Origin: an uncultured Clostridia bacterium
GTDB lineage: Bacteria; Bacillota; Clostridia; Christensenellales; Borkfalkiaceae
Assembly (NCBI GenBank): GCA_944328495.1
Contig: CALVHR010000001.1
Span: forward strand, 60,505 to 124,504
Direction: 5' to 3'
DNA length: 64,000 nt
Shown here: piece after piece, positions 6,880 to 27,333 of the stretch
Layout of the letters: the number at the start of each line of letters is the position of its first letter
How positions within the stretch are numbered: the stretch's first letter is position 1
Program-made: the position numbers and the translations under genes
Notes under the pieces: model-generated
Database searches by the model: none
Told to the model about the DNA's origin: nothing
Seen by the model: the letters and a program-made list of their open reading frames with translations, nothing else

Positions 6880-6908
6880 TGGACTAAATAGGAATTATAC
6901 GGTATTGT
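6880..6908 (+). promoter_or_regulatory. phage-class promoter A: TGGACT-N17-TATTGT
   Basis: TGGACT at 6880-6885, 17 bases, TATTGT at 6903-6908; the extended match with the other sites is CTGGACT-N12-TACGGTATTGTT (6879-6909). It directly precedes the small gene at 6930 and the large terminase. It shares 19 fixed-position bases with sites B and C, differing from them at only a few. Confidence 0.7.
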
Positions 6909-6929
6909 TCAGGCTACGGAGGTACAGAA

Positions 6930-7148
6930 ATGAAAAAAGGAAAGGTCGAGTTCCATAGCCAGGGACAATCTGGTAATATCTATTATATCATCGGGGCGGT
7001 GCGAGGCGTTATGCAAAAACAGCACAGGATCGCGGAATATAATGATATGTGGGAGCGGATACAGAACGCCAAAAGCTACTGGGAGGCGTTGAAAATCATT
7101 GCCGAACACGTGGATTTGGTCGATTTGGACGGAAGATATAAGGTTTAA
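6930..7148 (+). CDS. small phage protein of unknown function
   Basis: 72 residues, ATG 6930 behind CTACGGAGG. The sequence is soluble and helical (QKQHRIAEYNDMWERIQNAK) and ends with EHVDLVDLDGRYKV. No family recognised. It is the first gene after phage-class promoter A and is followed by a UUCG-loop hairpin before terL, so it may be produced in excess over terminase. Confidence 0.55.
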   Translation: MKKGKVEFHSQGQSGNIYYIIGAVRGVMQKQHRIAEYNDMWERIQNAKSYWEALKIIAEHVDLVDLDGRYKV

Positions 7149-7172
7149 AACAAACAAAATATACGTGTCTCT

Positions 7173-7213
7173 GGGAAGGAAGGTACTTCGGTGCTTTCCT
7201 TCCCGTTTATTTT
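7173..7213 (+). terminator. UUCG-loop hairpin between the 6930 gene and terL
   Basis: A 14-bp stem (7173-7186 with 7191-7204, two wobbles) capped by the very stable TTCG loop, followed by GTTTATTTT. The T-tract is interrupted, so it may be a partial terminator (attenuator) that lowers terminase expression relative to the gene before it. Confidence 0.6.
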
Positions 7214-7227
7214 CGGGAGGAGGGAGA

Positions 7228-8778
7228 ATGCCATTCAATGAACAGCTTGCGGATCGGGCGGCGGCATTTATTCGCTCGCTCAAACACACCAAAGGCACAT
7301 GGCATGGCAAGAACTTTGACCTGCTCCCGTGGCAGGAAAAAATCGTGCGGGATATATTTGGCACGGTAAAAGAAAGCGGCTATAGGCAATACAATACCGC
7401 CTATGTGGAGATCCCCAAGAAACAGGGAAAGTCAGAACTTGCCGCAGCAATCGCGCTTTATTTATTGGCGGGCGATGGTGAATGGGGCGCGGAGGTGTAC
7501 GGCTGTGCGGCAGACCGACAGCAAGCCTCCATCGTTTTTGATGTCGCTTGCCAGATGGTGGAACAATGCCCGGCTTTAAAAAAGCGGATAAAGCCCGTGA
7601 TGTCGCAAAAGCGGCTTGTGTATGCGCCGTTGAACAGCTTCTACCAGGTGTTGTCGGCAGAAAGCTATACCAAGCACGGACTGAATGTTCACGGAGTCGT
7701 TTTCGACGAACTCCATGCGCAGCCGAACCGTGCCTTGTATGATGTCATGACTCACGGCTCGGGCGACGCGAGAAAACAGCCTCTGTTTTTCTTGATAACA
7801 ACAGCGGGAACGGATCGAAACTCGATATGTTGGGAAGTGCATCAAAAAGCCAAAGACATTCTCGAGGGACGTAAACACGACCCGTCTTTCTACCCCGTGA
7901 TTTATGGGGCAGAGGACGATGACGATTGGGGAGATGAGCGGACATGGTATAAGGCAAACCCGTCGCTCGGAGTAACGGTTGACATTGATAAACTGCGGAC
8001 TGCCTATACTTCTGCAAAGGAAAACCCGGCTGAAGAAAACCTGTTTCGGCAACTTCGTTTGAACCAATGGGTAAAGCAATCCGTTCGATGGATGCCGATG
8101 GATAAGTGGGACGAGTGTGCCTTTGCGGTTGACCCGGAAAAACTCAAAGGGCGGGAATGTTACGGCGGGCTTGACCTCTCGTCAAGCACGGACATCACGG
8201 CGTTTGTCTTGGTGTTTCCGCCGCTCGACGAAGAGGATAAATACAGCATACTTCCGTTCTTTTGGGTGCCGGAGGATACAATCGACCTGCGGGTGCGGCG
8301 CGACCATGTTCCGTATGATGTGTGGCAAGCGAAAGGCGAGATGTTTTCGACCGAGGGAAACGTCATCCATTATGGATACATCGAAAACTTTATCGAGGAA
8401 CTCGGGACAAAATACAACATCAAAGAGATTGCGTTCGATAGGTGGGGTGCTGTTCAGATGACCCAAAACCTCGAGGGGATGGGTTTCACGGTCGTGCCGT
8501 TCGGACAGGGATATAAGGATATGAGCCCGCCGACCAAAGAGCTGATGAAGTTGGTGTTGGAGAAAAAGATCGCCCACGGCGGAAATGTGCCACTCCGTTG
8601 GATGATGGACAATGTATATGTCCGCACAGACCCTGCGGGGAACATTAAGATGGATAAAGAAAAATCTACGGAACGCATCGACGGCGCGGTGGCACTCGTT
8701 ATGGCTCTTGACCGAGCAATACGAAATAACGGACAGACCGACAGCGTTTATAACGATAGAGGAATTATTGTGATCTAA
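7228..8778 (+). CDS. terL: terminase large subunit (HK97 type)
   Basis: 516 residues from ATG 7228, which has GGAGGAGGG upstream. It is the packaging motor ATPase plus nuclease. Walker A is PKKQGKS at 63-69 and Walker B VVFDE at 157-161. A coupling motif follows (FFLITTAGT), and the C-terminal RNase H-like nuclease begins at GLDLSSSTDITAF with its first acidic ligand. Domain order and length match HK97-like TerL. It is unusually separated from both terS (4.7 kb upstream) and portal (4.5 kb downstream) by inserted genes. Confidence 0.95.
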   Translation: MPFNEQLADRAAAFIRSLKHTKGTWHGKNFDLLPWQEKIVRDIFGTVKESGYRQYNTAYVEIPKKQGKSELAAAIALYLLAGDGEWGAEVYGCAADRQQASIVFDVACQMVEQCPALKKRIKPVMSQKRLVYAPLNSFYQVLSAESYTKHGLNVHGVVFDELHAQPNRALYDVMTHGSGDARKQPLFFLITTAGTDRNSICWEVHQKAKDILEGRKHDPSFYPVIYGAEDDDDWGDERTWYKANPSLGVTVDIDKLRTAYTSAKENPAEENLFRQLRLNQWVKQSVRWMPMDKWDECAFAVDPEKLKGRECYGGLDLSSSTDITAFVLVFPPLDEEDKYSILPFFWVPEDTIDLRVRRDHVPYDVWQAKGEMFSTEGNVIHYGYIENFIEELGTKYNIKEIAFDRWGAVQMTQNLEGMGFTVVPFGQGYKDMSPPTKELMKLVLEKKIAHGGNVPLRWMMDNVYVRTDPAGNIKMDKEKSTERIDGAVALVMALDRAIRNNGQTDSVYNDRGIIVI

Positions 8779-8791
8779 GACTGCCAAACTA

Positions 8792-8820
8792 TTGATTTTT
8801 GCGCTCAAAAGTGCTATACT
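8792..8820 (+). promoter_or_regulatory. host-type promoter of the cargo insert
   Basis: TTGATT (8792-8797), 17 bases, TATACT (8815-8820), with the start codon at 8843. This is a near-consensus sigma-A promoter, unlike the phage-class sites. The cargo genes should therefore be expressed in the lysogen when late genes are silent. Confidence 0.75.
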
Positions 8821-8842
8821 TATATTATATACGGAGAGCATT

Positions 8843-10180
8843 ATGGAAAAAGTTGGTGTACCACAAATTCATATTATTCCTTTTGATTTAGGTGTTGTAT
8901 TTTATGATGTGTTAACCATAGATAATTCCAAAAATATATTGTTTGCCAAGTCATTTTGTGATGAATTAGCGCAGGAGTCGACAAATCGAAGTTGGAAACT
9001 TACGGAATTATTCCAAATTCGAGGGAATATTAAGCATCGTAAAAATCAAGTTCCTTTTGTGATAGATTATAAAAAGTGCGATTTTGCTGATCAGGCTATT
9101 TGTAAAGCGGAATTAAGACCAGACCTGTTTTGCTACATTCTTTCAAATGGGGTCGGAATCTTTGAGTTTATCGACTTGGAATGTTCCGCTTTGAAGGATA
9201 CCGACAAGTCAATCGGCAAATATAGCAAGGCGTTGGTTGCAAATTATCAAAAAAAGGTTACTCAATCCACCATATTGAACAAGGCAAGCTTCAAAGATGT
9301 TTGCCCCGAAGTAGAAGAGCAAATGCTGATATTTCGTGAAATTTGTTGGAAATTGGTGGCAGAAGGTGTAAAACGTAAAAAGATAAAGCATCTCCGCCCG
9401 TTCTCAAGCAATATCAATTATAAAGCCACAGGATTGTCCTATGTTTTAACTATTTACTTATTTAACGATGGTGAAATATCCGAGAGAGAGATGAATAATT
9501 TACTCTGTTCCTCGATGTTTTCAAAAGTTGTTAACCAAGAAAGTTGGGAACGGATCGACAAGGAAATAAAAAATACGGATGCAACCGACAATCCATACGT
9601 TATAGATGGTAGTGTAGCTAAGGTTTATGCCTCTTGGTCAGCGGTAGCGGTTGTTTCATCCAAGCCATTTCAAACAATTGACGATCTTAGAAACAACGAG
9701 GCAATAACCCAACTAATTAAGGTCGAGGCTTATGTGCAATCAAGGTGGTTTGTTGCGGACAACTCGATGGATAATGTAAACAAGGACTCTACAGCGTCGA
9801 TGGAAAGTTTACAGCGGATTGCAAGCCTTATGGAGTTTTGTCAAGCAGAATTGGATAATGAAATTAGTGCAAATATGGGGACGCTCCAAAAGAACCTGCT
9901 AAAATTGGTTGTGGAAACCTCATCCGTAAAGCAGTTATATAAGTCTGTGCTAAACCAAATTAAAACACAGTTAAAAATAAAAGAAGCACATAATACGGAT
10001 AAAAAACGTAAAAATAGATTGATAGCTGATTTGTTCTTGGCGGTTTTTTCAGCTTCGTCTCTTTATAAGACGATTTTGGACTTGATAGAAGGACAATTTG
10101 GTTGGCTCAATTGGGTAATATTCGGTGCTATGATGATTGTAGCAGTCGGAACAATTATATTTAATTATAAAAACAGGTAG
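8843..10180 (+). CDS. unknown membrane-anchored cargo protein (candidate defence or lysogenic-conversion protein)
   Basis: 445 residues from ATG 8843; an upstream in-frame start would fall inside the promoter. I do not recognise the family. The first 380 residues look soluble. A helical, charged stretch follows (about 350-390, QIKTQLKIKEAHNTDKKRK), then two membrane segments at about 392-411 and 421-440, ending in a short basic tail. The plan of cytosolic domain, helical stalk and C-terminal membrane hairpin recalls CorA-like or DUF155/RMD1-like proteins, but no signature motif confirms either. By eye the gene is clearly more AT-rich than its phage neighbours. It has its own promoter and is followed 7 bases later by a cysteine hydrolase. 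Confidence 0.6.
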   Translation: MEKVGVPQIHIIPFDLGVVFYDVLTIDNSKNILFAKSFCDELAQESTNRSWKLTELFQIRGNIKHRKNQVPFVIDYKKCDFADQAICKAELRPDLFCYILSNGVGIFEFIDLECSALKDTDKSIGKYSKALVANYQKKVTQSTILNKASFKDVCPEVEEQMLIFREICWKLVAEGVKRKKIKHLRPFSSNINYKATGLSYVLTIYLFNDGEISEREMNNLLCSSMFSKVVNQESWERIDKEIKNTDATDNPYVIDGSVAKVYASWSAVAVVSSKPFQTIDDLRNNEAITQLIKVEAYVQSRWFVADNSMDNVNKDSTASMESLQRIASLMEFCQAELDNEISANMGTLQKNLLKLVVETSSVKQLYKSVLNQIKTQLKIKEAHNTDKKRKNRLIADLFLAVFSASSLYKTILDLIEGQFGWLNWVIFGAMMIVAVGTIIFNYKNR

Positions 10181-10187
10181 GTTTTTT

Positions 10188-10742
10188 ATGAAAAGTATTC
10201 TTATAGTAGTGGATATGCAAAATGGGTTTAACCGATATGAGCAAACCCACACTCTTGCCAAGAAAGTCGCTGAACTTACTCAAAGCAACACTTTCGATGT
10301 GATAATCGCCACTCGTTTCCTTAATAAGGAAGGAAGCCAATACACAAAAATTTTGAATTGGCATAGGCTGATGACCAGTCCGGATATAGATTTGGTGGAA
10401 AACATTAAGACGGATTATGTGGTCGATAAATGGATATATACTTGCGTTAACGAGGAGTTTATAGGACTGCTTAAAAAGTGCAATGATGGTGAAATGCCGA
10501 AACATATCTTTTTATGCGGAGCGGATACTGACTGCTGCGTGTTAAAGATTGCCACCGATTTATTTGAGCAAGGCATAATGCCAATAGTCTTAACAAATTA
10601 CTGTGACTCCAATGGTGGACCAAAATCCCATGATGCGGGTATTCTGGTGATGGAAAGGCTGATAGGTAAAAGAAGTCTTGTCGATGAAAAAATCGAAAAA
10701 AGAGCTGATGTCGAAAGGTTAACAGCAGAAAGGCAATATTGA
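10188..10742 (+). CDS. isochorismatase-like cysteine hydrolase, cargo partner of the membrane protein
   Basis: 184 residues with an isochorismatase/nicotinamidase fold. The catalytic aspartate is in VVDMQNGF near the N-terminus and the nucleophile is in GADTDCCV at about residue 112; a lysine at the usual central position is plausible (DYVVDKWIY). The DxHxxxH metal site of nicotinamidases is absent, so nicotinamidase activity is not supported. The C-terminal 25 residues are charged and extra. It is co-transcribed with the membrane protein (7-base gap) and closed by a terminator. The substrate is unknown. Confidence 0.8.
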   Translation: MKSILIVVDMQNGFNRYEQTHTLAKKVAELTQSNTFDVIIATRFLNKEGSQYTKILNWHRLMTSPDIDLVENIKTDYVVDKWIYTCVNEEFIGLLKKCNDGEMPKHIFLCGADTDCCVLKIATDLFEQGIMPIVLTNYCDSNGGPKSHDAGILVMERLIGKRSLVDEKIEKRADVERLTAERQY

Positions 10743-10763
10743 ATATCTAAAGTTAAAAAATGC

Positions 10764-10790
10764 AACCGCACTCCGAGAGTGCGGTTTTTC
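10764..10790 (+). terminator. terminator closing the cargo insert
   Basis: A perfect 10-bp stem (10764-10773 with 10777-10786), 3-base loop, T5. Together with the promoter at 8792 it makes the two cargo genes a self-contained transcription unit. Confidence 0.85.
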
Positions 10791-10813
10791 CATGCAAAAA
10801 AGCGGAGGGAAAG

Positions 10814-12151
10814 ATGCAGATAGAAAAGAGAGCGGTAGCAGAGTTGAAAGCGGCTCCATATAATCCGAGGAAAGACCTCAAGCCCGGCGATGCCGAATAT
10901 GAGAAGCTCAAACGGAGCATCCAGGAGTTTGGCTATGTCGAGCCAGTGATATGGAATAAGCGAACAGGGACGGTCGTCGGCGGGCATCAACGGCTCAAAG
11001 TCATGAAAGACCTCGGCTACGAGGAAGTCGACTGCGTGGTGGTGGACTTGGACGAGCAGAAAGAAAAAGCACTTAATATCGCTCTGAATAAAATCAGCGG
11101 CGAATGGGATGAGGGGCTGCTCGCCAATCTTCTCAAAGACTTGGATAACAGCGGGTATGATATCACATTTACCGGCTTTGACCTCGCGGAGGCGCAGGAA
11201 CTGTTCGGGAGCGGCTCGTTTGAGAATGTGCATGAAGATGAGTTCGATGCGGAATCGGCCGTAGCCGAGATATCCGAACCCAAGACCAAGCACGGTGATT
11301 TATGGCTTCTTGGCAAGCACAGACTGCTGTGCGGCGATTGTACCATTGCGCAGGACGTTGCAAAACTCATGGACGGAAGAATTGCCGATGTAATGGTCAC
11401 GGATCCGCCATATAATGTGGACTATGGCTCGGCGATCATCGGGAAAAACAAATCCAAGACCAGGACGGAAAGCACCATCGCCAATGACAACATGAACGAT
11501 GATGACTTCCATCAATTCTTGCTCGCATTCTATAAAGCGGCATACGATGTACTCAAAAAGGGCGCACCGTTGTATGTTTTTCACAGCACGAAGGAGACGG
11601 TGAACTTCACGCAGGCGATGGAAGAGGCGGGATTCAAGTATGCCCAGACGCTTGTGTGGGTGAAAAATCATTTCACCCTCGGTCGGCAGGACTATCAATG
11701 GATACACGAGCCGATTTTATACGGCTGGAAAGAGGGCGCGGGACATTACTTCATCGATGACAGGACGCTGTCGACCGCTTTGGAGGGCGTTGCCGAGAAT
11801 ATCAAGAAGATGAGCAAGGCAGAACTGACAGACCTTGTAGAGCGAATTTTGGGGCTTCCTACGACCGTCGTGAGAGACAACAAACCTGTGAAGTCGCCCG
11901 ATCATCCGACGATGAAACCCATCACCCTGTGCGCAAAACTCATATACAACAGCAGCCACGAGGATGATACGGTATATGAGCCGTTCGGCGGGAGCGGTTC
12001 GACAATGATGGCGGCAGAACAGCTCAGCAGAAAATGCTGCGCCATTGAACTCGAACCGAAATACTGTGATGTCATCGTGCGCAGATACAGGGAACTGTGT
12101 CCCGATGCGGAGATAAAACATATCCGAGACGGACAGGAAATATTCGATTGA
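10814..12151 (+). CDS. ParB-domain DNA methyltransferase (N6-adenine or N4-cytosine)
   Basis: 445 residues from ATG 10814 with GGAGGGAAAG upstream. Residues 1-95 form a ParB/Srx-like domain (NPRKDLKPG, then VGGHQRLKVMKDLGY). The methyltransferase domain starts near residue 175, with the catalytic TDPPYNVDYG at about 196-205 and the SAM-binding FGGSGSTMMAAEQL near 395. DPPY before the SAM motif places it in the beta class. This fusion is common in Firmicutes prophages. With no nuclease nearby it is probably a solitary modifier of phage DNA, the second one in this prophage beside the cytosine enzyme. Confidence 0.93.
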   Translation: MQIEKRAVAELKAAPYNPRKDLKPGDAEYEKLKRSIQEFGYVEPVIWNKRTGTVVGGHQRLKVMKDLGYEEVDCVVVDLDEQKEKALNIALNKISGEWDEGLLANLLKDLDNSGYDITFTGFDLAEAQELFGSGSFENVHEDEFDAESAVAEISEPKTKHGDLWLLGKHRLLCGDCTIAQDVAKLMDGRIADVMVTDPPYNVDYGSAIIGKNKSKTRTESTIANDNMNDDDFHQFLLAFYKAAYDVLKKGAPLYVFHSTKETVNFTQAMEEAGFKYAQTLVWVKNHFTLGRQDYQWIHEPILYGWKEGAGHYFIDDRTLSTALEGVAENIKKMSKAELTDLVERILGLPTTVVRDNKPVKSPDHPTMKPITLCAKLIYNSSHEDDTVYEPFGGSGSTMMAAEQLSRKCCAIELEPKYCDVIVRRYRELCPDAEIKHIRDGQEIFD

Positions 12152-12166
12152 CGGGGGCGGGTTCGC

Positions 12167-12195
12167 TGGACTTGATCCGAAACTTGTGATATGTT
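12167..12195 (+). promoter_or_regulatory. phage-class promoter D: TGGACT-N17-TATGTT
   Basis: CTGGACT (12166-12172) is identical to sites A and C and is followed 17 bases after TGGACT by TATGTT (12190-12195). The -10 half is the weakest of the four sites. It precedes the 12221 gene by 26 bases. Confidence 0.5.
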
Positions 12196-12220
12196 GTTCA
12201 AAAAAAGGGAGGTCCCAAGA

Positions 12221-12484
12221 ATGAAGAGTATCACAGAAGCCATATACGACGGATGGATCAATGAACGTGAACGGAGGAACAAATTGCCCCAAGATGACCC
12301 CGAATGCAAAGCATTGTCAAAGTTCGAAGACACATTGACAAAGGAACAGAAAGTTCTGTTCGACCAGTTCATGGATGCCTATACGACCAATGAGGAGAAA
12401 CTTCGAAAAGCGGCATACGGACGTGGCTTAAAACTTGGTATCCGATTGGGATGTGAGGCGGCGAACTATGATGCGGAGGAGTGA
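12221..12484 (+). CDS. small phage protein, DUF6809-like
   Basis: 87 residues. ATG 12221 is preferred because the upstream in-frame ATG at 12191 falls inside the phage-class promoter and because GGGAGG precedes 12221. The pattern AIYDGWINERER, then a central LTKEQKVLFDQFMDAY, then YGRGLKLGIRLG resembles the small phage proteins grouped as DUF6809, which have no known function. That match is from memory of the pattern. It is first in a two-gene unit; the next gene starts two bases after its stop. Confidence 0.6.
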   Translation: MKSITEAIYDGWINERERRNKLPQDDPECKALSKFEDTLTKEQKVLFDQFMDAYTTNEEKLRKAAYGRGLKLGIRLGCEAANYDAEE

Positions 12485-12485
12485 T

Positions 12486-12713
12486 ATGGAAGAGAAAGAC
12501 GATACGACCCTCTGTGGTGAGATGTCGTTGGAAGAGTTCATGCAACATCTGAAAGGTATCGAAGAGCAGAGCGACAGAGAGGATGAACTGCTGGAGTTTT
12601 ACAATAAGGCATGGGAAATCCGATTGGGGACGAAACTTGTTCGAGTTCCGTTCGATGCGGTCTCTTTCAATGCTATATATGATGCATTGAGCAAGATAAA
12701 ATCGGAGGAGTGA
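12486..12713 (+). CDS. small acidic phage protein, unknown
   Basis: 75 residues, ATG 12486 with GCGGAGGAG upstream, two bases after the previous stop, so translationally coupled. Very acidic N-terminal half (EEKDDTTLCGEMSLEEFMQ), then a short helical C-terminus. No family recognised. A terminator follows immediately, its stem beginning in the last codons. Confidence 0.55.
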   Translation: MEEKDDTTLCGEMSLEEFMQHLKGIEEQSDREDELLEFYNKAWEIRLGTKLVRVPFDAVSFNAIYDALSKIKSEE

Positions 12714-12727
12714 TCCTCCGATTTTTC
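12699..12727 (+). terminator. terminator after the 12486 gene
   Basis: An 11-bp perfect stem (12699-12709 with 12714-12724), loop GTGA, T-run to 12726. The stem starts inside the end of the coding sequence. Phage-class promoter B lies 45 bases downstream. Confidence 0.85.
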
Positions 12728-12770
12728 TTGAAAAAATGTGTTTTTCTTTCGGGTTTCGGCGTGTTTTCGC

Positions 12771-12799
12771 TGGGCTCTTTCGCTCGTTTACGGTATTGT
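12771..12799 (+). promoter_or_regulatory. phage-class promoter B: TGGGCT-N17-TATTGT
   Basis: CTGGGCT (12770-12776), 12 bases, TACGGTATTGTA (12789-12800). Same spacing and nearly the same bases as sites A and C. It precedes the 12829 gene and follows a terminator. Confidence 0.68.
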
Positions 12800-12828
12800 A
12801 TAGGTACAAAAACGAAAGGAGAAACACC

Positions 12829-13020
12829 ATGAACAAAGCATACTGCACAGGAAAACTCGCCGCCCTGGTAAGAGACCATAACCATTATCTGAAAGTCAGA
12901 TACACGGATGCGGTCGCGGATTACAGGCGGGCAATCGACAACCTTATCTATGTAGCCAAGAGCGTGGGCATCACCATGAAATACGCCATCGAAAAGGATG
13001 GCAGCATCACGATACTGTAA
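12829..13020 (+). CDS. small phage protein, unknown
   Basis: 63 residues from ATG 12829, with AAAGGAG upstream and phage-class promoter B 30 bases before. Helical, basic N-terminus (CTGKLAALVRDHNHYLKVRY), ending with MKYAIEKDGSITIL. No family recognised. First gene of a small unit with the DUF6900-like gene. Confidence 0.55.
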   Translation: MNKAYCTGKLAALVRDHNHYLKVRYTDAVADYRRAIDNLIYVAKSVGITMKYAIEKDGSITIL

Positions 13021-13032
13021 GGAGGCGGCGAG

Positions 13033-13236
13033 ATGAAACAGGAAATCAGCAAAGCAACACTCAAGGCACTCGAGAAAATCGCAATGCGGGAAAGCGCAGC
13101 CATAGAGGAAAGAGGCGGGCTGGAGCGGAAATGGAACGACACCGAGGACTTCCCCGAAGTCGCGGTATGGTCAATCGAGGCGATGCTCGTCGCGGCGTAC
13201 AAGCTGGGCAAACAGGCGGCGAAGACAGATAAATAA
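13033..13236 (+). CDS. DUF6900-like small phage protein
   Basis: 67 residues, ATG 13033 with GGAGGCGGCG upstream. The arrangement of an N-terminal LEKIAMRESAA helix, a polar middle and FPEVAVWSIEAMLVAAYKLG at the end is the pattern of the DUF6900 family, common next to phage structural genes and of unknown function. I recognise this by pattern only. A GAAA-loop terminator follows. Confidence 0.6.
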   Translation: MKQEISKATLKALEKIAMRESAAIEERGGLERKWNDTEDFPEVAVWSIEAMLVAAYKLGKQAAKTDK

Positions 13237-13260
13237 CGATACAACATCAATGTGGCATAG

Positions 13261-13285
13261 CCGCTCGGGAAACCGAGCGGTTTTT
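13261..13285 (+). terminator. GAAA-loop terminator before the portal gene
   Basis: CCGCTCGG-GAAA-CCGAGCGG (13261-13280) then TTTTT. It separates the small accessory genes from the structural operon. I see no phage-class promoter between it and the portal start at 13308, so structural genes may depend on read-through from promoter B or D. Confidence 0.85.
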
Positions 13286-13307
13286 CGTGTGCTTGAAAGG
13301 AGGGTGA

Positions 13308-14630
13308 ATGGGACTATTTAAGAGGAGCAGAGACGGTCCAAAGGAGAGACGGGATCGCTCGGAAAAGATGAAAGACTTCATTCGCGGAGTCGATGTGGAC
13401 TACATCGGGAACAGCAACAGCGGTGTTCGTGTGGATGAACTGCGGGCGATGCAGACGAGTGCGGTATATGCCTGCGTCAAGATACTATCGGAGACCGTGG
13501 CGAGCCTTCCGTTGCATCTGTATAAGAAAGGAAAGGACGGGAAACACGAACTCGCCGACCAGCACCCGCTGAATGCGTGCTTGTATGAGCTTCCGAATGA
13601 GGAGATGACCTCGTTCGAGTTCCGAGAAAGCATGATGTCGTCATTGCTGTTGTGGGGAAACGCTTATGCGCGGATCATCAGACGGCAAGGTCATGTCGTC
13701 GAGCTATGGTATTTGAAACCGCATCTCATGACGGTGGAGCGGGACAGTCTCACGGACAAGATAAAATACACCTATTCGGACGATGTAACCAACGAAACCT
13801 ATGTGTACAGACCTGACCAAGTCTTCCATGTAAAGGGTTTATCGTTCGACGGGGTAAAGGGCATCAGCCCGATTGCCCAGGCGAGAGAAGCGATTGGACT
13901 TTCGCTCGCTACCGAGGAATACGGCGCAAAGTTCTTCGGAAACGGAGCAAGACCGGGCGGTGTTCTCGAACATCCCGGCATCCTGAAAGACCCTGAAAAA
14001 CTGCGTGAGTCATGGAACAAGGTCTATCAAGGAACGAGAAACAGTCACAAAGTGGCTGTCCTCGAAGAGGGGATGAAATACCACACGATAGGGATTGCTC
14101 CCGAAGACGCACAGTTCCTCGAAACCCGCAAGTACCAATTGAACGAGATATGCCGTATCTTCCGTGTGCCTCCGCACCTCGTCGGGGATTTGGATAGGGC
14201 GACATTTTCGAACATTGAACATCAGTCAATAGAATTTGTGCAGCATACCATTCGCCCCTGGCTTGTGCGATGGGAGCAGGAAATCAGCCGTTCACTCTTG
14301 GATGAGAAAGAACGGCTTTTGTATTTTGCCAAGTTCAATGTAGACGGACTCCTGCGCGGTGACTATAAATCGCGCATGGAGGGCTATGCGATCGGTCGCC
14401 AGAACGGGTGGCTGTCAATCAATGATATTCGCCGCTTGGAGGATATGCCGTCCATAGACAAGGAACAAGGCGGGGATGATTACCTCGTCAACGGAAATAT
14501 GACGGCGGCGGGTGTTGCAACGCAACAAGAACAAAAAGGAGGTAGCGATGGAGAAGGGAAAGAAGGAGATGCGAATGCTCCCGATGAAGGAACTCCGAAT
14601 AAGCGAAAACGACGGGTCGGCGGTGATTGA
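13308..14630 (+). CDS. phage portal protein (HK97 family)
   Basis: 440 residues. It forms the dodecameric ring through which DNA enters the head. Typical HK97-portal features: the early segment TSAVYACVKILSETVASLPLHLY, the central LRESWNKVYQGTRNS and YHTIGIAPEDAQFLETRKYQ, then EICRIFRVPPHLVGDL. The C-terminal 40 residues are glycine- and charge-rich. ATG 13308 follows AAAGGAGGGTGA. It overlaps the protease gene by 83 bases in another frame. Confidence 0.95.
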   Translation: MGLFKRSRDGPKERRDRSEKMKDFIRGVDVDYIGNSNSGVRVDELRAMQTSAVYACVKILSETVASLPLHLYKKGKDGKHELADQHPLNACLYELPNEEMTSFEFRESMMSSLLLWGNAYARIIRRQGHVVELWYLKPHLMTVERDSLTDKIKYTYSDDVTNETYVYRPDQVFHVKGLSFDGVKGISPIAQAREAIGLSLATEEYGAKFFGNGARPGGVLEHPGILKDPEKLRESWNKVYQGTRNSHKVAVLEEGMKYHTIGIAPEDAQFLETRKYQLNEICRIFRVPPHLVGDLDRATFSNIEHQSIEFVQHTIRPWLVRWEQEISRSLLDEKERLLYFAKFNVDGLLRGDYKSRMEGYAIGRQNGWLSINDIRRLEDMPSIDKEQGGDDYLVNGNMTAAGVATQQEQKGGSDGEGKEGDANAPDEGTPNKRKRRVGGD

Positions 14631-15180
14631 GGGACACGCCGCCGTGTTTGATTCGTGGTCGGAGACACTCGGCGGCATTTTCCCGTTTAAGGAAATCGTT
14701 CGCCAGGGCGCATTCAACGAGAGCATTGGTCGAGACGATATTCGCGCACTTTTCAATCACGACCCGAACTATGTGCTGGGACGAAACAGAGCGGGAACAC
14801 TCGAACTCGTCGAAGACGAAGTCGGGCTTCGTGTGCGAATTTCACCGCCCGAGACGAGTTGGGCGAGAGACGTGCAGACGAGCATACGCCGCGGGGACAT
14901 CACGCAGATGTCAATCGGATTTATGGTCGAAGACGATGAATGGCGAACCGAGAACGGAATGGATGTGCGGGAACTTCGCAAGGTCAAACTGTTCGACGTG
15001 AGCCCGGTGACATTCCCTGCGTACACGGCAACGGATGTCGGCGTGAGGGCAATGCAGGAATATGAAGGGTACAAGGCTGAACAACGCAGACAGACCGAGG
15101 AAGCGGCTCAAGCTGCGGCACAAAAAGCCAGAGAGCAAGAGAAGCTCAAACGGCTGAAAACAAAAATTAAAAATCTTTGA
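14548..15180 (+). CDS. HK97 family prohead protease (peptidase S78)
   Basis: 210 residues from ATG 14548, chosen for its AAAAAGGAGGTAGCG leader. It processes scaffold and capsid subunits during head maturation. The catalytic histidine is in LFNHDPNYVLGR and the serine in QMSIGFMV; both are in the usual order and spacing. The C-terminal 40 residues form a charged coiled-coil (EEAAQAAAQKAREQEKLKRL). It overlaps the end of the portal gene and is followed 11 bases later by the capsid gene. Confidence 0.93.
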   Translation: MEKGKKEMRMLPMKELRISENDGSAVIEGHAAVFDSWSETLGGIFPFKEIVRQGAFNESIGRDDIRALFNHDPNYVLGRNRAGTLELVEDEVGLRVRISPPETSWARDVQTSIRRGDITQMSIGFMVEDDEWRTENGMDVRELRKVKLFDVSPVTFPAYTATDVGVRAMQEYEGYKAEQRRQTEEAAQAAAQKAREQEKLKRLKTKIKNL

Positions 15181-15191
15181 GGAGGAACGAT

Positions 15192-17911: not shown

Positions 17912-17921
17912 GAGGAAGAAA

Positions 17922-18323: not shown

Positions 18324-18335
18324 AGGAGGAGAATA

Positions 18336-18955: not shown

Positions 18956-18971
18956 AAAGGGAGGGGATACA

Positions 18972-21665: not shown

Positions 21666-21669
21666 AGCG

Positions 21670-22026
21670 GTGAATTTTTTCAGCATAAACGGAAAAACGA
21701 TCAAATCACCGACTGAAATCACGATATCGCCCGAACACCTCGATAAAGCGGAACGCACTTTGGACGGAACGATGGTGATAGATGTGATCGGGACTAAGAA
21801 AAAAGTGGACGTGTCCTGGGAATATTTAGCCAAAGAGGATTTGAAGGTGTTGACGACAGAATCCGGGAGCGACCGCTTCTCCCGGATTACTTTTCACAAC
21901 GGGGAAACAGGAGAACTTGAAACCATTGTCTCAAGGGCAGAAAACCTGACGTATATGCCTTATTATGATTGGGCAAAGGCACAACTTCTTTGGAAGGATG
22001 TTTCGCTTTCGTTCAAGGAAAAATAG
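21670..22026 (+). CDS. tail protein, DUF6711-like
   Basis: 118 residues starting with GTG 21670, four bases after the tape measure stop, with AAGGGGG upstream. The pattern FFSINGKTIKSPTEITIS, then a KKKVDVSWEYLAKEDLKVL middle, resembles the small beta-rich proteins (DUF6711) between tape measure and baseplate genes in Clostridia phages. Probably a distal tail component. No direct functional motif is visible. Confidence 0.6.
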   Translation: MNFFSINGKTIKSPTEITISPEHLDKAERTLDGTMVIDVIGTKKKVDVSWEYLAKEDLKVLTTESGSDRFSRITFHNGETGELETIVSRAENLTYMPYYDWAKAQLLWKDVSLSFKEK

Positions 22027-22034
22027 GAGGGGTT

Positions 22035-23810
22035 ATGGAATATTCAGATAATCCCCGAAAGGTTTACGGTAAGGTCGAGATTATATACAGCGACAAGGAA
22101 ATCAGCAGCAACATGGGTGTGACGGTGAGCGGAAATTCCGAAATCAGTCACCCGAGGGAAGTGTTCGAAGGATACCAAACTCCTACCGTCAAGGCTTGTA
22201 CAATGGACGGAAATTCGGACATGGGCGGGTCGTTTCAAATGCTCGGGAAAAACTGTATTCTTGGGTGGTGGAGCGGAACGCTTTGTGACGGAAACGGCGT
22301 GTTTGCCGTTAAGCCGTACATCGAACTGTCATTTGTCTTGCGTCCCATTATTTCTTGGATCATACGCGGAGACGATAAACTCAAACAATACCCTGTAGAC
22401 TTTACCATTCAGTATAAGTCAAACGGAAATGTTGTCAGAACTGACGAGATAACGGGGAATACGGAAATTGAAATTAAACTCGAACCGAGAGTCAATGACA
22501 TTACTTCGATTCGCATGACAATTTCAAAATGGAATACCCCGAATGCTTGCGCTAAAATTCTGCAATTTTACGATAAGTTATATGAGGAATACGTTGGGGA
22601 TGCCATGCAGATGTTTGAGGTGAACGAAGAGATGTGTTCATCGGACGGAAACTACAACATCAACTCTGACAGTATGACGGTAACGCTTCATAATACAGAC
22701 AGGAAATTCGATAAAGGATATCTCCGTTCTCTTATGATCCTCGGCAGAAAAGTGCAACCTTACATCGGGATAGAGAAAGAGAACGGAGTCGAATATACCA
22801 GGCTTGGCACATTCTATTCCGAGGAATGGCAAGTGGAGCAGGATAGTCAGTGGGTAAAGTGTACGGCCGTAGACAGACTGATGAGTTTGCAAAGTCAAAC
22901 ATACATGGGATACCCTTTTACGGACAGGGTTTCCGTATATGAGTTGGCAGAGGATGTTTTGCAAAAGAGCGGGCTTGAACCCTCTGAATATGTTATTTCC
23001 GCCAATCTGAAAGAGAACATAATAGACATGGCGTATCTTCTAAAGACAACTGCATGGGACGCATTGCAGGAAATAGCAAACGCAGCCCTCTGCAAAGTCT
23101 TTGTGGATCGAGAGGATAGAATTCACCTGCGAAGCGAGGAGACGGAGTCGCTCTCGGCAGGGATAGAGATAAACCCGAGCAATATGTTCAGTTACAAATC
23201 GAGCATTACGTTGACCGAATTTGCAAACAGAATCAAGGTGGAATACACGGAAGTGAGTATAGCAACGGAAATTATAGAGGTGGCTGAACTTGAGGTTGCT
23301 TTGAATCCGAATGAGGTCAAGACAATCACATTGGAATATTCTTCCGATATAGCCTATGCGATGGCATATTCGAGCAACTCCAATGTAAAAGTGGTAATGG
23401 AACAAGGCGGGGTAAATGCTTGCATTCTGACGTTGACGAATGCGACAGGTAGTGTCCAGGCAGCTACTTTGACGGTAGAGGGCAATGCGATCGAACTCAA
23501 TTCGCATACCGTTTATTCGGAGGACGAGGACAGCGTGAACAGTTATGGCACGGTGGAATATACACACCCTGCTTCGGAACTGGTGCGCACCGAAGAACAA
23601 GCAAAATATATCGGGTCGATAATTCTTGCAAGGATGCGGGCGGGTGAGGGCGTTATTACAACGGAATGGCGCGGAAATCCTGCCCTGGAAATTGGAACGG
23701 GATACAAGAGCGTAGACAGATTCGGTGATGGGAAAGAGTTGGTTTGCGAATATAACAAGTTCACTTACAATGGCGGGTTAAAGCAACAGACCCGAGGCAG
23801 ATTGAAATAG
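22035..23810 (+). CDS. baseplate / tail-associated protein
   Basis: 591 residues from ATG 22035 (TAGGAGGGGTT leader). The middle (about 200-340) has the features of a phage hub protein: LHNTDRKFDKGYL, YIGIEKENGVEYTRLGTFYSEEW, then WVKCTAVDRLMSLQ and SVYELAEDVLQKSGL. The last third is a beta-rich region ending KQQTRGRLK. It likely forms the tail tip hub that carries the fibres. No lytic domain is seen. Confidence 0.75.
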   Translation: MEYSDNPRKVYGKVEIIYSDKEISSNMGVTVSGNSEISHPREVFEGYQTPTVKACTMDGNSDMGGSFQMLGKNCILGWWSGTLCDGNGVFAVKPYIELSFVLRPIISWIIRGDDKLKQYPVDFTIQYKSNGNVVRTDEITGNTEIEIKLEPRVNDITSIRMTISKWNTPNACAKILQFYDKLYEEYVGDAMQMFEVNEEMCSSDGNYNINSDSMTVTLHNTDRKFDKGYLRSLMILGRKVQPYIGIEKENGVEYTRLGTFYSEEWQVEQDSQWVKCTAVDRLMSLQSQTYMGYPFTDRVSVYELAEDVLQKSGLEPSEYVISANLKENIIDMAYLLKTTAWDALQEIANAALCKVFVDREDRIHLRSEETESLSAGIEINPSNMFSYKSSITLTEFANRIKVEYTEVSIATEIIEVAELEVALNPNEVKTITLEYSSDIAYAMAYSSNSNVKVVMEQGGVNACILTLTNATGSVQAATLTVEGNAIELNSHTVYSEDEDSVNSYGTVEYTHPASELVRTEEQAKYIGSIILARMRAGEGVITTEWRGNPALEIGTGYKSVDRFGDGKELVCEYNKFTYNGGLKQQTRGRLK

Positions 23811-23821
23811 GAGGGTCAGGT

Positions 23822-24823
23822 ATGGCAACATGGAAAGAACCGGAGACGAACCATACGGTCGAAGACCAGGTGACTCCGGAAATTTTTAATACACTTGCAG
23901 AGAATGAGGTGTATTTGAATGAAACAAAAATAACAACAGATCAGGTGCAGGAGGCAAAGGTGATGAGCGAAACAAGCACGACTCGGGAAAATTTGACCGA
24001 GCAGGACACCATAATGGGTGCGTTCGGGAAAATTCGAAAGTGGTTTGCCGATTTACGCGCTTTGGCATTTAAGGACAAAGTCGGTGGGACAGATATTGTG
24101 GAATCATCGGTCACAACTACTCACCTCGTTGATTCGGCTGTGAGTACGAATAAAATCGGTTATATGGCTGTGACAGAGGCAAAAATTGCCTCGAGTGCTA
24201 TTACAGCCGCAAAACTCGCAGATGGTTCGGTTATATCATCGAAAATTGCATCCCTGGCGGTCACGACAGAAAAACTCGGAAGCCTTGCGGTAACAGCTGC
24301 AAAACTTGCGGCGAGTGCGGTTACGACAGACAAGATAGCCAATTCCGCCGTAACCGACGCCAAGATTTCTTCAGTTTCGGCAAGCAAGGTCACAGGTCTT
24401 GCAGATGTTGCAACGTCGGGAGACTATAATGACCTTATAAATAAACCGACGATATCCTCTGGCATAACTCTTACGCGCACGACAATCAGGCTGAACCAGC
24501 AGTACAATATCCCCGCAACGGGTGTTTATCTGTGCTTTGTGAGTTACTTGAATGCGGCAAGCATGAAAGGTGTAGCGTGCTTGGGTACAATGTCGAACGC
24601 AACAAGCATTGACAACGGAACTTGCAGCGGGATTTCTTCAATTTACTATGACGGGGGATATAAAAACATTCAGCTTCGCTGTATTAACGTAAGTTCGACA
24701 GCATTTATTTATAGGCTGTACATTTCTACAAACTCGACAGCCGCACCGACGCAGCTTTTTGACGGAGACGGAACAATGACTGTCATTATGTACAAAATCA
24801 GCGGACTTTCGGCGATAACTTAA
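23822..24823 (+). CDS. tail fibre with 11-residue repeats
   Basis: 333 residues. The N-terminus (DQVTPEIFNTLAENEVYLNET) attaches to the baseplate. Residues about 88-190 are a run of roughly eleven-residue repeats around the pattern SAVT..KIA and SAVTAAKLA, which form a trimeric helical or beta shaft in fibres. The C-terminal 130 residues are a beta-rich head (from about ISSGITLTRTT) that would bind the host surface. The repeats show up as near-repeats in the DNA at 24100-24370. Confidence 0.78.
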   Translation: MATWKEPETNHTVEDQVTPEIFNTLAENEVYLNETKITTDQVQEAKVMSETSTTRENLTEQDTIMGAFGKIRKWFADLRALAFKDKVGGTDIVESSVTTTHLVDSAVSTNKIGYMAVTEAKIASSAITAAKLADGSVISSKIASLAVTTEKLGSLAVTAAKLAASAVTTDKIANSAVTDAKISSVSASKVTGLADVATSGDYNDLINKPTISSGITLTRTTIRLNQQYNIPATGVYLCFVSYLNAASMKGVACLGTMSNATSIDNGTCSGISSIYYDGGYKNIQLRCINVSSTAFIYRLYISTNSTAAPTQLFDGDGTMTVIMYKISGLSAIT

Positions 24824-24832
24824 GGAGTGAGT

Positions 24833-25189
24833 ATGGCGAGAGCGAGAAACAGAATTAAACTTGTCAAAGGCAATGCGTTCAGCATCGCCTTTCATAATGT
24901 CCGCTTGCCGATTGTCGTCGAAGGGGAAGGAGTTGAAAAGATCGAGATAACGGAAGAGGACCGTTTGGACTTTTCTATTACTCGGACAGACCGTGTGCCT
25001 GTGATACAAAAATACTATCCGGGCGAGATAGAAAGAAACGGCGATACATTCTATGCGATGCTGACTGCCGAGGAAACGGAAAGGCTTGAAAGCATTTTAT
25101 ACCGAGCGCAGTTGCGAGTTGATATTTCAAATTGCGGAGAGGAGGTTTACACGCTTGTCGATAAGGAATTGGAGGTGGTAGCAAAATGA
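24833..25189 (+). CDS. phage tail-region protein, unknown
   Basis: 118 residues from ATG 24833; the GTG at 24827 falls in the ribosome binding region TAAGGAGTGAG. Beta-rich, soluble; contains AFSIAFHNVRLPIVVEG and TRTDRVPVIQKYYPGEIER. It looks like a small beta-sandwich adaptor that belongs with the fibre genes. No family recognised. Its end overlaps the next start. Confidence 0.55.
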   Translation: MARARNRIKLVKGNAFSIAFHNVRLPIVVEGEGVEKIEITEEDRLDFSITRTDRVPVIQKYYPGEIERNGDTFYAMLTAEETERLESILYRAQLRVDISNCGEEVYTLVDKELEVVAK

Positions 25190-25497
25190 GCGGGTTTCAC
25201 GAAAAGTGCAGTTGTGTCCATGTCGAGCCGTTTCAGACAATCACCAAAAAATATAAAGGCGTCGAGAACGATGCATTGGAAACGGTCGTGGACAATAAAG
25301 AGTGGACCATTGAGGTCAAACCCAAGCCCCAGCAATACCAAAGCAAATATGCATTCCCCAATATCGGGAATCCATCGGTGCTATATGTCGACGTCAAGGA
25401 AAACGAGACATATCGTTGGGACGAGGAAACAAGGCAATATGTCTGTATTGGTACAGACTATCGAAGCATTAAAATCATAAATGGAGGGAACGCATAA
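25186..25497 (+). CDS. phage tail-region protein, unknown
   Basis: 103 residues; ATG 25186 overlaps the stop of the previous gene. The C-terminal half (PSVLYVDVKENETYRWDEE, then RQYVCIGTDYRSIKIING) resembles the short beta-hairpin attachment module found at the ends of phage fibres and beside tail adhesin genes. The next gene starts directly behind it. Function not known. Confidence 0.55.
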   Translation: MSGFHEKCSCVHVEPFQTITKKYKGVENDALETVVDNKEWTIEVKPKPQQYQSKYAFPNIGNPSVLYVDVKENETYRWDEETRQYVCIGTDYRSIKIINGGNA

Positions 25498-25498
25498 T

Positions 25499-26551
25499 AT
25501 GAGCAACAGAATTCTTGACAGTCAGATCCAGAGCAGGAACGATACGGCGGCGAATTGGTCGTCTGTGAACCCCGTCCTTTTGAAGGGCGAAATCGGTATC
25601 GAGATTGATACCAGAAAGATGAAGGTCGGCGACGGCACGACAGAGTGGAACAGTTTGAAATATCTGAAAGACGATATTGTCATTGCATCCACAAATCCCT
25701 CGACGACCGATAAAGACTTCGACCTGGGAGAGTTTTGGCTGAACCAGACCGACAAAACGCTGTATGTCCTGGTTGCAAAAACAGAGAGCGCGGGCGAATG
25801 GAAAAGGATCCCGAACGCCGAGGAACTCGTCGTTGTGTCTGAGGCGCTCGTTGCACAAAAACTGAAAACGGCAAGAAGTATCAGTATCATCGGCGACGGG
25901 TCGGGTGCGACAACTTTTGACGGGAGTGCGGATGCGAGCATTACGCTTGTGCTGAAAAACACTGGTGCAAGCGCAGGAACATACACAAAAGTAACGGTCA
26001 ACGAAAAGGGATTGATTACCAAAACCGAACTTCTTACGGCGGAGGATATCCCGACACTCACGCTTGCGAAGATCTCCGATGCAGGAACGGCAGCGGCGAG
26101 GGACGTGGGAACTTCTCAAGGTAACCTTGTGGAGGTCGGCGCAGACGGTAAAATCCCCGACAGCGTTTTGCCGCCTTTGGCTATTACCGAACCCCATGCG
26201 GTCGCTGACCAGTCGGAAATGCTTGCTCTCGAGGCACAGGTCGGTGATATCGCAATCCGTGCGGATGAGGGAAAATCCTATATTCTGAAACAGACTCCCG
26301 CATCGACGCTTGAGAACTGGCTCGAACTGAAATCTCCCGAATGCAAAGTCCTGTCGGTAAACGGAAAAACGGGTGCAGTCGTACTTACGACAAGCGACAT
26401 CGCTGAAGGCTCAAACAAATACTATACCGAGGAGAGGGCAACGGCAAACTTTGAAAGCAATTACAAGGCATCGAGTTCGGCAGACCTGACGGATGGCGAA
26501 ACAATTCTCCATGCGACCGACACGCTCGTCCTGAACGGGGGTAACGCATAA
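25499..26551 (+). CDS. tail fibre with Mtd-type N-terminal domain
   Basis: 350 residues from ATG 25499. Residues 1-60 (SRNDTAANWSSVNPVLLKGE, then GIEIDTRKMKVGDGTTEWNSL) match the N-terminal domain of major tropism determinant-like fibres and phage hyaluronate lyases. A GSADASITLVLKNTGASAG repeat region and a beta-rich body follow, ending ILHATDTLVLNGGNA. It likely acts in receptor recognition. I saw no diversity-generating reverse transcriptase or template repeat nearby. Confidence 0.75.
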   Translation: MSNRILDSQIQSRNDTAANWSSVNPVLLKGEIGIEIDTRKMKVGDGTTEWNSLKYLKDDIVIASTNPSTTDKDFDLGEFWLNQTDKTLYVLVAKTESAGEWKRIPNAEELVVVSEALVAQKLKTARSISIIGDGSGATTFDGSADASITLVLKNTGASAGTYTKVTVNEKGLITKTELLTAEDIPTLTLAKISDAGTAAARDVGTSQGNLVEVGADGKIPDSVLPPLAITEPHAVADQSEMLALEAQVGDIAIRADEGKSYILKQTPASTLENWLELKSPECKVLSVNGKTGAVVLTTSDIAEGSNKYYTEERATANFESNYKASSSADLTDGETILHATDTLVLNGGNA

Positions 26552-26561
26552 GGGGGCTGAA

Positions 26562-26858
26562 ATGGTTTCAATTATAATAAGCATCTGTGCGAGCATCATC
26601 AGCGGGATGGTGCTTTTTTTCTTACAGCGGTTTTTCAAACGGAAAGCCAAGAACGATGAGGCTCGGGACGCAGCAAAGGCGAAAGAAAATATGCTTATTT
26701 TGAAAAGCATAGATGCAGTCGGCAAGCTGACGTATGCTAATGCAGTCGCTATTCGGGACGGGAAAACAAATGGCGAAATGCATGAGGCTATGGAAACATA
26801 CCAGGAAAATAAAGCCGAGATGTATGAATACCTGCTCGAACAAAATGCGAATAAGTAA
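26562..26858 (+). CDS. small membrane protein of the lysis region
   Basis: 98 residues. One N-terminal membrane segment (IIISICASIISGMVLFFLQRF) followed by a basic stretch and a long charged helix. Such proteins are common next to holins in Clostridia phages; a role in lysis timing or as an antiholin/spanin-like partner is possible but unproven. It has a GGGGGCTG leader and is followed 12 bases later by the holin. Confidence 0.65.
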   Translation: MVSIIISICASIISGMVLFFLQRFFKRKAKNDEARDAAKAKENMLILKSIDAVGKLTYANAVAIRDGKTNGEMHEAMETYQENKAEMYEYLLEQNANK

Positions 26859-26870
26859 AGGAGGGAAAAC

Positions 26871-27170
26871 ATGGAAAGTTATTTGGAACTTGTCAGCGTC
26901 CCTGCGATAGCAGCGGTCGTTTACTGGGTCATAGCAATCATAAAGTATGCTGTAAAGGAAAACGAAACTTTCAAAAGGTTTATTCCGCTGATCGCCGCAG
27001 GGCTTGGCGTAATTCTCGGCGTGGTCGCCTACTACCTCGTGCCGGGCATTGTTCCCGCCGATAACGTGGTGGTCGCCATTATCGTTGGCGGGGCGAGCGG
27101 TTTGACTGCTACGGGCGTCAATCAGATCATAAAGCAACTTGGCAAAGGAGATGGCGATGAGCAGAAGTAA
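26871..27170 (+). CDS. phage holin
   Basis: 99 residues with three hydrophobic segments (about 8-26, 38-60, 68-88) and a charged C-terminus, the class I holin plan, close to the A118-type/phage_holin_2_4 group (FIPLIAAGLGVILGVVAYYLV). It makes the membrane holes that let the endolysin out. ATG 26871 follows AAAGGAGGGAAAAC. No endolysin gene follows, which is unusual. Confidence 0.82.
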   Translation: MESYLELVSVPAIAAVVYWVIAIIKYAVKENETFKRFIPLIAAGLGVILGVVAYYLVPGIVPADNVVVAIIVGGASGLTATGVNQIIKQLGKGDGDEQK

Positions 27171-27291
27171 TCTTGTGAAGTGCGAAATTGCAAACGCCAT
27201 TGTGATGCAACTGTGGGTGAAATGCCTTATTTCGACGGAAGAAAGGGATGCAATTATAGCCAAAAACAAGCGCAGTTTTCTTTCTGAATAA
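27151..27291 (+). CDS. short conserved-looking protein before the recombinases
   Basis: 46 residues (44 if ATG 27157 is used), overlapping the end of the holin gene, with GGCAAAGGAG upstream. It reads SRSNLVKCEIANAIVMQLWV, then KCLISTEERDAIIAKNK. Small proteins of this kind, with a helix followed by LI(S/T)xEE(R/Y)(D/K)xI, commonly lie beside serine recombinases in Clostridia elements. A role as recombination directionality factor is a possibility suggested only by size and location. Confidence 0.55.
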   Translation: MAMSRSNLVKCEIANAIVMQLWVKCLISTEERDAIIAKNKRSFLSE

Positions 27292-27304
27292 CGCAATTTT
27301 TCTC

Positions 27305-27333
27305 TGGACTTTCGTTGCAAGATACGCTATTGT
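27305..27333 (+). promoter_or_regulatory. phage-class promoter C: TGGACT-N17-TATTGT, for the recombinases
   Basis: CTGGACT (27304-27310), 12 bases, TACGCTATTGTT (27323-27334). The -10 touches the left arm of a terminator hairpin, so transcripts starting about 7 bases on would lack most of that arm and escape termination, while read-through from the late operon would stop. Confidence 0.68.

Follow-up and report, generated by a model that had tools for sequence, protein, structure and literature searches.

What reads a promoter-like motif that recurs in a prophage of an uncultured Clostridia bacterium is the question raised by the stretch analysed here, namely 64,000 nucleotides of contig CALVHR010000001.1 (hereafter the window). 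The motif, CTGGRCT-N12-TACGSTATTGT, has the layout of a promoter with a -35 box TGGRCT and a -10 box TATTGT at a spacing of 17 bases. A preliminary description of the window had proposed a second promoter class that is probably read by the prophage's own sigma factor. From the sequence comparisons reported below, we see an even chance that the motif is one uniform promoter class of prophages and some chromosomal islands of gut Clostridia which is read by machinery supplied by the host.

Three exact copies of the long pattern, all on the plus strand and with no mismatch, were found in the window, where 0.10 are expected, and none of 100 shuffles reached three. These are site 1 (CTGGACT-N12-TACGG-TATTGT at 6879-6908, with the -35 box at 6880-6885 and the -10 box at 6903-6908), site 3 (CTGGGCT-N12-TACGG-TATTGT at 12770-12799, boxes at 12771-12776 and 12794-12799) and site 4 (CTGGACT-N12-TACGC-TATTGT at 27304-27333, boxes at 27305-27310 and 27328-27333). 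Four shared sites had been described, and the fourth, site 2 (CTGGACT-N12-TGTGA-TATGTT at 12166-12195 on the plus strand, boxes at 12167-12172 and 12190-12195), proved to be a looser variant that the long pattern does not match even with three mismatches allowed. Site 2 keeps the -35 box, the N17 spacing and a -10 box TATGTT, has TGTGA in place of TACGG, and fits CTGGRCT-N17-TA...T. Site 3 is nearest the family consensus, with a matrix score of 68.0 versus 23.0 for site 1 and 25.3 for site 4, and a counterpart of site 1 is present in G168:C114. The positions ascribed to the sites before phage genes and behind terminators were both borne out: the gap from motif to start codon is 21, 25 and 29 bases at sites 1 to 3 (starts 6930, 12221 and 12829) and 98 bases at site 4 (start 27432), and three of the four sites come after or onto a terminator (6832-6857, the hairpin at 12701-12722, and 27332-27363).

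A scan of the host genome (2.12 Mb, 56 contigs) confirmed the enrichment that the preliminary description had suggested looking for, as the core pattern TGGRCT-N17-TATTGT is confined to the prophage with three matches, against one for the reversed-pattern control. The long pattern was found in none of the 39 other genomes of the host genus. When up to two mismatches are allowed, 14 places turn up in the genus (40 genomes), the three prophage sites included, versus 22 for the reversed control pattern. Matches in host DNA are thus not above control, the motif is not equally common in the host genome, and no host regulon was seen in this search.

The evidence for a promoter class comes mainly from related phages. 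When viral contigs were scanned for exact matches, 33 records yielded 37 stretches, several of them multi-copy, and by eye nearly all matches closely precede a start codon. Up to 13 copies were found in a related phage, on the late-gene strand. Across 14 phage sequences the late strand has 85 copies of CTGGRCT, of which 66 are followed by TA...T 17 bases on, versus none of 10 on the other strand; the set of 66 includes at least one likely chance match (G051, 46496), and the phages are related, which means that site counts are not independent events. The matrix was built from 63 of 66 distinct sites, three exact viral matches (L011, L029 and L030) that by eye do not stand before a gene having been dropped. 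CTGGRCT and TACGG are 12 bases apart in all but two of 58 cases, G is found at -14 in 64 of the 66 sites, and the third -10 base is T in all 66; TA...T served as a filter, so that -10 positions 1, 2 and 6 are not independent evidence. Positions 4 and 5 of the -10 box vary among sites. The -10 half is mostly TACGG-TATNNT, with TGTGA and TATGG each seen once in place of TACGG, and TATGTT is the -10 box in five of the 66 sites, window site 2 among them. Upstream, phased A/T tracts recur with an 11-base period (power 0.116 versus 0.022 for the largest of 1000 shuffles), and a ribosome-like site with a start codon lies 21-54 bases downstream in 61 of the 66 sites, none having been found for the other five.

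The two halves of the motif also find each other when only one is searched. When NACGGTATNNT is the query, the late strand gives 73 matches, of which 60 carry CTGGRCT and two more, both in G067, carry it with one change; the remaining 11 look like chance, four matches lie on the other strand, and none of the 73 late-strand sites has TTGACA at -35. In a pattern-free count of gapped pentamer pairs in intergenic DNA, with candidates drawn from sigma-bearing phages, the motif ranks first after one poly-A pair and falls on one strand, and the same count separately recovers the canonical TTGAC-N18-TATAA. The motif dyads that were chosen in sigma-bearing phages (six of seven, 22 copies) reappear in sigma-less ones (six of seven, 19 copies). 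The spacers between the boxes differ among copies, which argues against recent copying. Taken together, the sequence evidence supports the existence of a second promoter class. Compared with canonical SigA promoters (TTGACA-N17-TATAAT), the motif shares the 17-base spacing, the T-A-T-N-N-T (within TANNNT) of the -10 box and the G at -14, whereas its -35 box is CTGGRCT and never TTGACA, and host genes apparently do without it.

The prophage does encode a sigma factor, of SigK/SigE type, at 5438-6028 on the plus strand. It is nearest to SigK (NCBIfam scores of 109.5 and 100.3 bits) and SigE (100.7 and 91.1 bits), yet stays far below the equivalog cut-offs of 252 and 298.65, and of 339 and 348.6, respectively. 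The protein had been described as having two domains; Sigma70_r2 is well over its cut-off (47.9 bits, cut-off 24), while region 4 of the window protein, at 15.4 and 16.5 bits, lies below the Pfam cut-offs, a relative in G048 reaching 40 bits. No region 3 match was obtained in it at E up to 1, and region 3 of the host SigA scores 109.8 bits. The genes for a DNA methylase, an S-adenosylmethionine synthetase (MetK) and the sigma stand in a row in the terminase region (window 2510-6028); MetK matches were found in all 14 phage sequences and the sigma in seven. Relatives of the sigma with 40-47% identity occur in 12 of the 33 motif-bearing viral records.

The motif is, nevertheless, kept where the sigma is lacking. 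No sigma was found between MetK and TerL in G042, G049 and G261, which keep five, four and 11 motif sites, nor in the motif-bearing G067, G044, G040 and G070, nor in the prophages C16 of Pumilibacter intestinalis (seven sites) and G433 (five sites). Even the whole assemblies of G261, G433 and G439, which may be incomplete, gave no sigma of this type. The sites of sigma-less phages are not worse either and if anything more often perfect, since the perfect TACGGTATTGT is found at 21 of their 26 sites versus 22 of 40 in sigma-bearing phages (p 0.038; 0.042 without near-copies; relatedness of the phages makes these sites non-independent). On the TerL tree the presence of the sigma needs five changes, four of which are forced by well-supported branches, and 78 of 500 shuffles were as low. 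Related phages without the sigma thus keep the motif in more than one lineage (G261, C16, G042 and G433), an outcome that the preliminary description had itself named as refuting its proposal; the claim that the prophage's own sigma reads the motif is not supported, and we reject the sigma as sole reader. The motif can thus be kept without the sigma. In phages that encode it, the sigma could use these promoters or modulate their activity.

Two further candidates were sought around the sigma and rejected. A search for another motif special to sigma-bearing phages yielded mostly A/T-rich pairs, some of which are the motif's own upstream flank, and none was convincing; TTGAC-N18-TATAA has 10 copies in six of seven sigma-bearing phages versus two copies in two of seven sigma-less ones. 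For a second, divergent sigma in the sigma-less phages, a local profile search covering 13 sequences (G049 and G070 were outside it) returned the sigmas already known, proteins of ArpU type and weak matches resembling region 4, the best other match being 31 bits in G067.

Site 4 bears on when the promoter has to work. It is located between the holin gene and two serine recombinase genes, and relatives have the same arrangement. The first recombinase, of integrase type, is encoded at 27432-28925 on the plus strand (Pfam Resolvase 1.6e-28, Recombinase 3.4e-25), and the second at 28915-30522 on the same strand, an open frame whose matches in relatives coincide with those of the first. The motif precedes the recombinase genes in all nine long phages examined, with CTGGRCT in eight and, by eye, GTAGACT in G042. 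A sigma made from the late operon would be late for an integrase promoter, and this is our main reason to prefer a reader that is always present. The end of site 4 is overlapped by a terminator hairpin with a 13-pair stem (27332-27363, plus strand), and an overlapping terminator between holin and recombinase was found in 12 distinct versions in 14 sequences, G042 not among them. One stem position is G-C, G-T or A-T in nine of ten versions lined up, the tenth not having been aligned by the script. Because the terminator overlaps the promoter's end, transcripts from upstream would form the hairpin, and those started at site 4 would lose most of its 5' arm. The hairpin would then stop arriving transcripts while new ones from site 4 escape.

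The motif was also traced through genomes. In the host family an exact match was found in 13 of 398 genomes, with none for the control; G261 has 11 matches, of which 10 are listed on contig 32. Among named genomes, 24 yielded 33 stretches with the motif, and almost all of these genomes are recorded as Clostridia, Clostridiales or related groups; there is overlap between the two sets, and many of the assemblies are incomplete. The sigma is present in two of the 398 family genomes, both with the motif, and in four of the 24. Cultured bearers of the motif are Pumilibacter intestinalis, P. muris and Anaerocaecibacter muris, of the family Pumilibacteraceae. TerL relatives number at least 564, and five of the best 80 contigs carry the motif, four with a TerL identity of at least 86.9% and L194 (G044) with 81%; G040, G056 and G070, which were found via the motif, have a TerL identity of 71-75%. 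The motif was seen, besides, in records named Akkermansia, Atopobiaceae and Bacteroides. L294, L299 and L305 are contigs resembling this phage family in metagenome-assembled genomes called Akkermansia and Atopobiaceae (Lapin-024, Lapin-001), and misbinning of these phage-like contigs is probable.

Exact single sites were found in chromosomal islands of nine genomes of the host family (G337, G353, G358, G359, G360, G382, G386, G389 and G404), where they mostly follow a terminator-like stretch and precede a small open frame. The sigma type occurs in none of the nine. A TerL match at 1e-10 was obtained in none of seven of them, by a search aimed at this TerL and not at other phage families; the other two have TerL matches, distant in G360 (28%) and closer in G389 (74%). 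The neighbouring genes in G353, G359, G386 and others include some that are presumably defence genes, of HNH, SEFIR/TIR-like, SIR2-like and caspase-like kinds. One of the small island proteins is a DUF7678 protein, and a similar protein is encoded behind the motif in a P. intestinalis prophage (L311). In the genus of G386, 13 places with up to two mismatches were found in 44 genomes versus one control match; four of these are exact island sites, several others lie in phage-like DNA of G389, and L284, L287 and L288 overlap open frames. As an observation in its own right, L131, L132, L133, L317, L320 and L323 are islands in which variable defence-like genes accompany a recurring unit of terminator, motif and small gene (MNKIDYEKAITEAKDK... 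or DUF7678).

The ArpU-like protein of the prophage had been offered as an alternative reader. It is encoded at 192-485 on the plus strand (phrog_36 1.1e-07, phrog_79 1.2e-04), as a late regulator of ArpU/Q type. In favour of this reader, an ArpU-like protein precedes the HNH gene in all ten phages where this place is covered (by BLAST in the window, G041, G048 and G055, by eye in the other six). These proteins, however, differ strongly between phages. Behind the ArpU-like gene lies the -10 box (TATAAT, 1304-1309, plus strand) of a probable late promoter, with no TTGACA box seen, and the ten phages compared have TATAAT or TATGAT before HNH with differing upstream repeats. In most phages the late -10 box is preceded by phage-specific direct repeats, by eye, such as GTGAACGA, TTAAGACGA or GCAACA units, and a script detects repeat units of 7-12 bases that are seen twice before it; the repeats are weak in the window, G041 and G048. 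As the repeats vary with the phage and the motif is constant, the late promoter is the more likely natural target of ArpU. The motif does not follow these differences, the ArpU-like protein was rejected as its reader, and we find this reading scarcely credible. The late promoter with its differing repeats (window 1240-1310) is likely an operator system for ArpU-like regulators. Between the ArpU-like gene and the late operon, on the minus strand (500-1185), stand genes that we take, by eye, to encode a Doc/Fic-like toxin and a RelB/DinJ-like antitoxin.

How, then, would a host-supplied reader work? The -10 half of the motif is of the kind read by a primary sigma factor, the A/T tracts before it would favour binding of RNA polymerase, and CTGGRCT would be contacted by the primary sigma itself or by a second factor. 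Transcription would start about 7 bases after TATNNT. The promoter would work in the lysogen and on entry without phage proteins, and would serve genes outside the late programme, that is small accessory genes in cassettes of promoter, gene and terminator, and the integrase genes. Several observations weigh against this reading. Pfam finds regions 1-4 in the host SigA, whose region 4 helix looks ordinary by eye, so that SigA alone is not expected to demand CTGGRCT, yet the -35 box hardly varies and in no case reads TTGACA; this near-invariance, together with the lack of such host-gene promoters, argues for a further factor. The hosts' own genes apparently make no use of such promoters, which would be odd for a host reader. 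A search with an alignment of the sigma returned 16 contigs, 15 of the window type (A1), and all 15 have the motif, these contigs being near-copies of a few lineages. Lastly, the host genomes are mostly incomplete assemblies, in which a sigma could be missed.

That all 15 contigs carry the motif favours the prophage's SigK/SigE-like sigma acting with host core polymerase, provided that elements lacking the gene obtain the sigma from phages that share the cell or enter it. Three of the 15 contigs (L067, L068 and L075) had been missed by the motif scan and carry variant motifs only, and a search with MetK, which is blind to both sigma and motif, found 34 loci with both in 11, the sigma alone in none, the motif alone in four (L161, L162, L182 and L183, of which L183 ends inside MetK and cannot be judged) and neither in 19. 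These counts mean that the sigma implies the motif, and that the reverse does not hold. Two distant sigmas with 35% identity (L063 and L076) have no motif in the stretches covered. Borrowing would be possible in P. intestinalis, which has sigma-bearing and sigma-less prophages together; the motif differs from the SigA consensus at both boxes, and sigma-bearing phages have no other convincing motif of their own. The motif is kept, however, where no such sigma was found in whole assemblies that may be incomplete, in sites that are no worse, and before integrase genes for which the sigma would come late, and we judge this explanation unlikely. We are more inclined to entertain, tentatively and with some doubt, a putative trans-acting protein of the element or the host that binds CTGGRCT, taking the part of sigma region 4, and leaves the -10 box to the primary sigma, as MotA does at T4 middle promoters; the site would then be an activator-dependent promoter. 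The near-invariant box, its one dominant spacing, the ordinary -10 half and the absence of any sign of such host promoters would all fit. Against it, no candidate box-binding protein was found, and no regulator was recognised in the three single-site islands examined. A 114-residue DeoR-like protein (by eye), present in all nine long phages examined, was considered and rejected as it also occurs in five of nine motif-free viral records, three of the five being 40-43 kb long, although such records may be fragments.

A broader form of the same thought is a regulon confined to mobile elements, in which their own specificity factor, a new sigma or a substitute for region 4, reads the promoter for prophage cargo, integrase and defence-rich islands; we hold it to be rather improbable. 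If it were true, island genes would answer to the same factor as the prophages, possibly firing when a related phage enters. Finally, rather than a promoter, the motif might be a DNA site of another kind, such as one where crossover lets accessory cassettes move, as there is one motif per small gene or pair in cassette-like units and similar small genes occur in phages and islands. By eye, though, there is no dyad symmetry between the boxes, positions 4 and 5 of the -10 box vary, the motif is placed on one strand before ribosome sites, and the differing spacers do not suit products of recent recombination, so that this explanation appears very improbable to us.

The genes behind sites 1 to 3 are small, and all features of these units are on the plus strand. 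Site 1 follows a terminator with an 11-pair stem and T run (6832-6857) and precedes a 72-residue accessory gene (6930-7148; phrog_1933, which has no assigned function, 1e-07), the unit being closed by a terminator with a 15-pair stem (7172-7205). By eye, small proteins resembling its product precede TerL in G040, G044, G056, G067 and G070. Behind site 2 come a DUF6809 protein gene (12221-12484, its start picked from the ribosome site GGGAGG; Pfam 3e-08, scored on the longer frame 12191-12484) and an open frame of 75 residues (12486-12713) which has no Pfam match and has relatives of 41-42% identity in G048, G261 and G273. After these genes and before site 3, a terminator-like hairpin (12701-12722) with a T run was read from the sequence at 12701-12727; it is missing from the list of the terminator scan that gave the other unit terminators. 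Site 3 precedes a 63-residue accessory gene (12829-13020), with relatives of 58-63% in G042, G048 and G049 and, by eye, a protein like it in G389:C8, where a variant of the motif precedes the gene, and then a DUF6900 protein gene (13033-13236; Pfam 2.1e-16) and a terminator with a 10-pair stem (13259-13282). In relatives, the motif units contain small proteins, as well as a pair that we take to be an amidoligase and a gamma-glutamyl cyclotransferase.

Apart from these units, a palindrome, TTGCGGACACAA-N8-TTGTGTCCGCAA, was noted at 6443-6474, over a SigA-like promoter TTGATT-N17-TATAAT (6459-6487). It lies between a gene for a double helix-turn-helix repressor (5967-6497, minus strand) and the gene at 6538, and is a probable operator of that repressor.

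Morons of temperate phages are accessory genes with their own promoter and terminator, the promoters being ordinary sigma-70 promoters. Sites 1 to 3 resemble them as units of predicted promoter, gene or genes and terminator between late genes, the number of which varies in relatives; here, however, an elaborate non-consensus promoter is shared, and it also stands before integrase genes and in islands. T4 middle promoters combine a MotA box with a sigma-70 -10 box. They share with the motif an ordinary -10 half and a different conserved box at -35 with fixed spacing, and differ in the sequence of that box from CTGGRCT. ArpU/RinA/Q-like regulators are likewise present upstream of the terminase genes here, and they vary with the late-promoter repeats, not with the motif. 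SigK and SigE recognise CATA as the -10 box. The motif's -10 box is not CATA, and this promoter class persists without the sigma. The window sigma is of SigK/SigE type, like SPO1 gp2.21 and SP10 g120, sporulation-like phage sigmas that are nonessential for lytic infection according to PMC9429907, where it is stated that sigK-like promoters of the phage genome were hypothesised, without confirmation, to be the targets of SPO1 gp2.21. In the literature searched on this promoter, its hosts and such sigmas, no description of the promoter was recognised, and positions 1-32000 of the window gave no Rfam match.

For the biology of these phages and their hosts, the motif offers a promoter class that can be tested, has dozens of copies and occurs in cultured hosts, and it provides a way to study how the cargo genes of phages could be turned on apart from the late programme. 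A tempting pairing of phage sigma and promoter is weakened, and the question raised in its stead is what reads a promoter that seems to belong to mobile elements only. As some phages have the sigma and others lack it, even within one strain, they provide natural controls for the function of sporulation-like phage sigmas.

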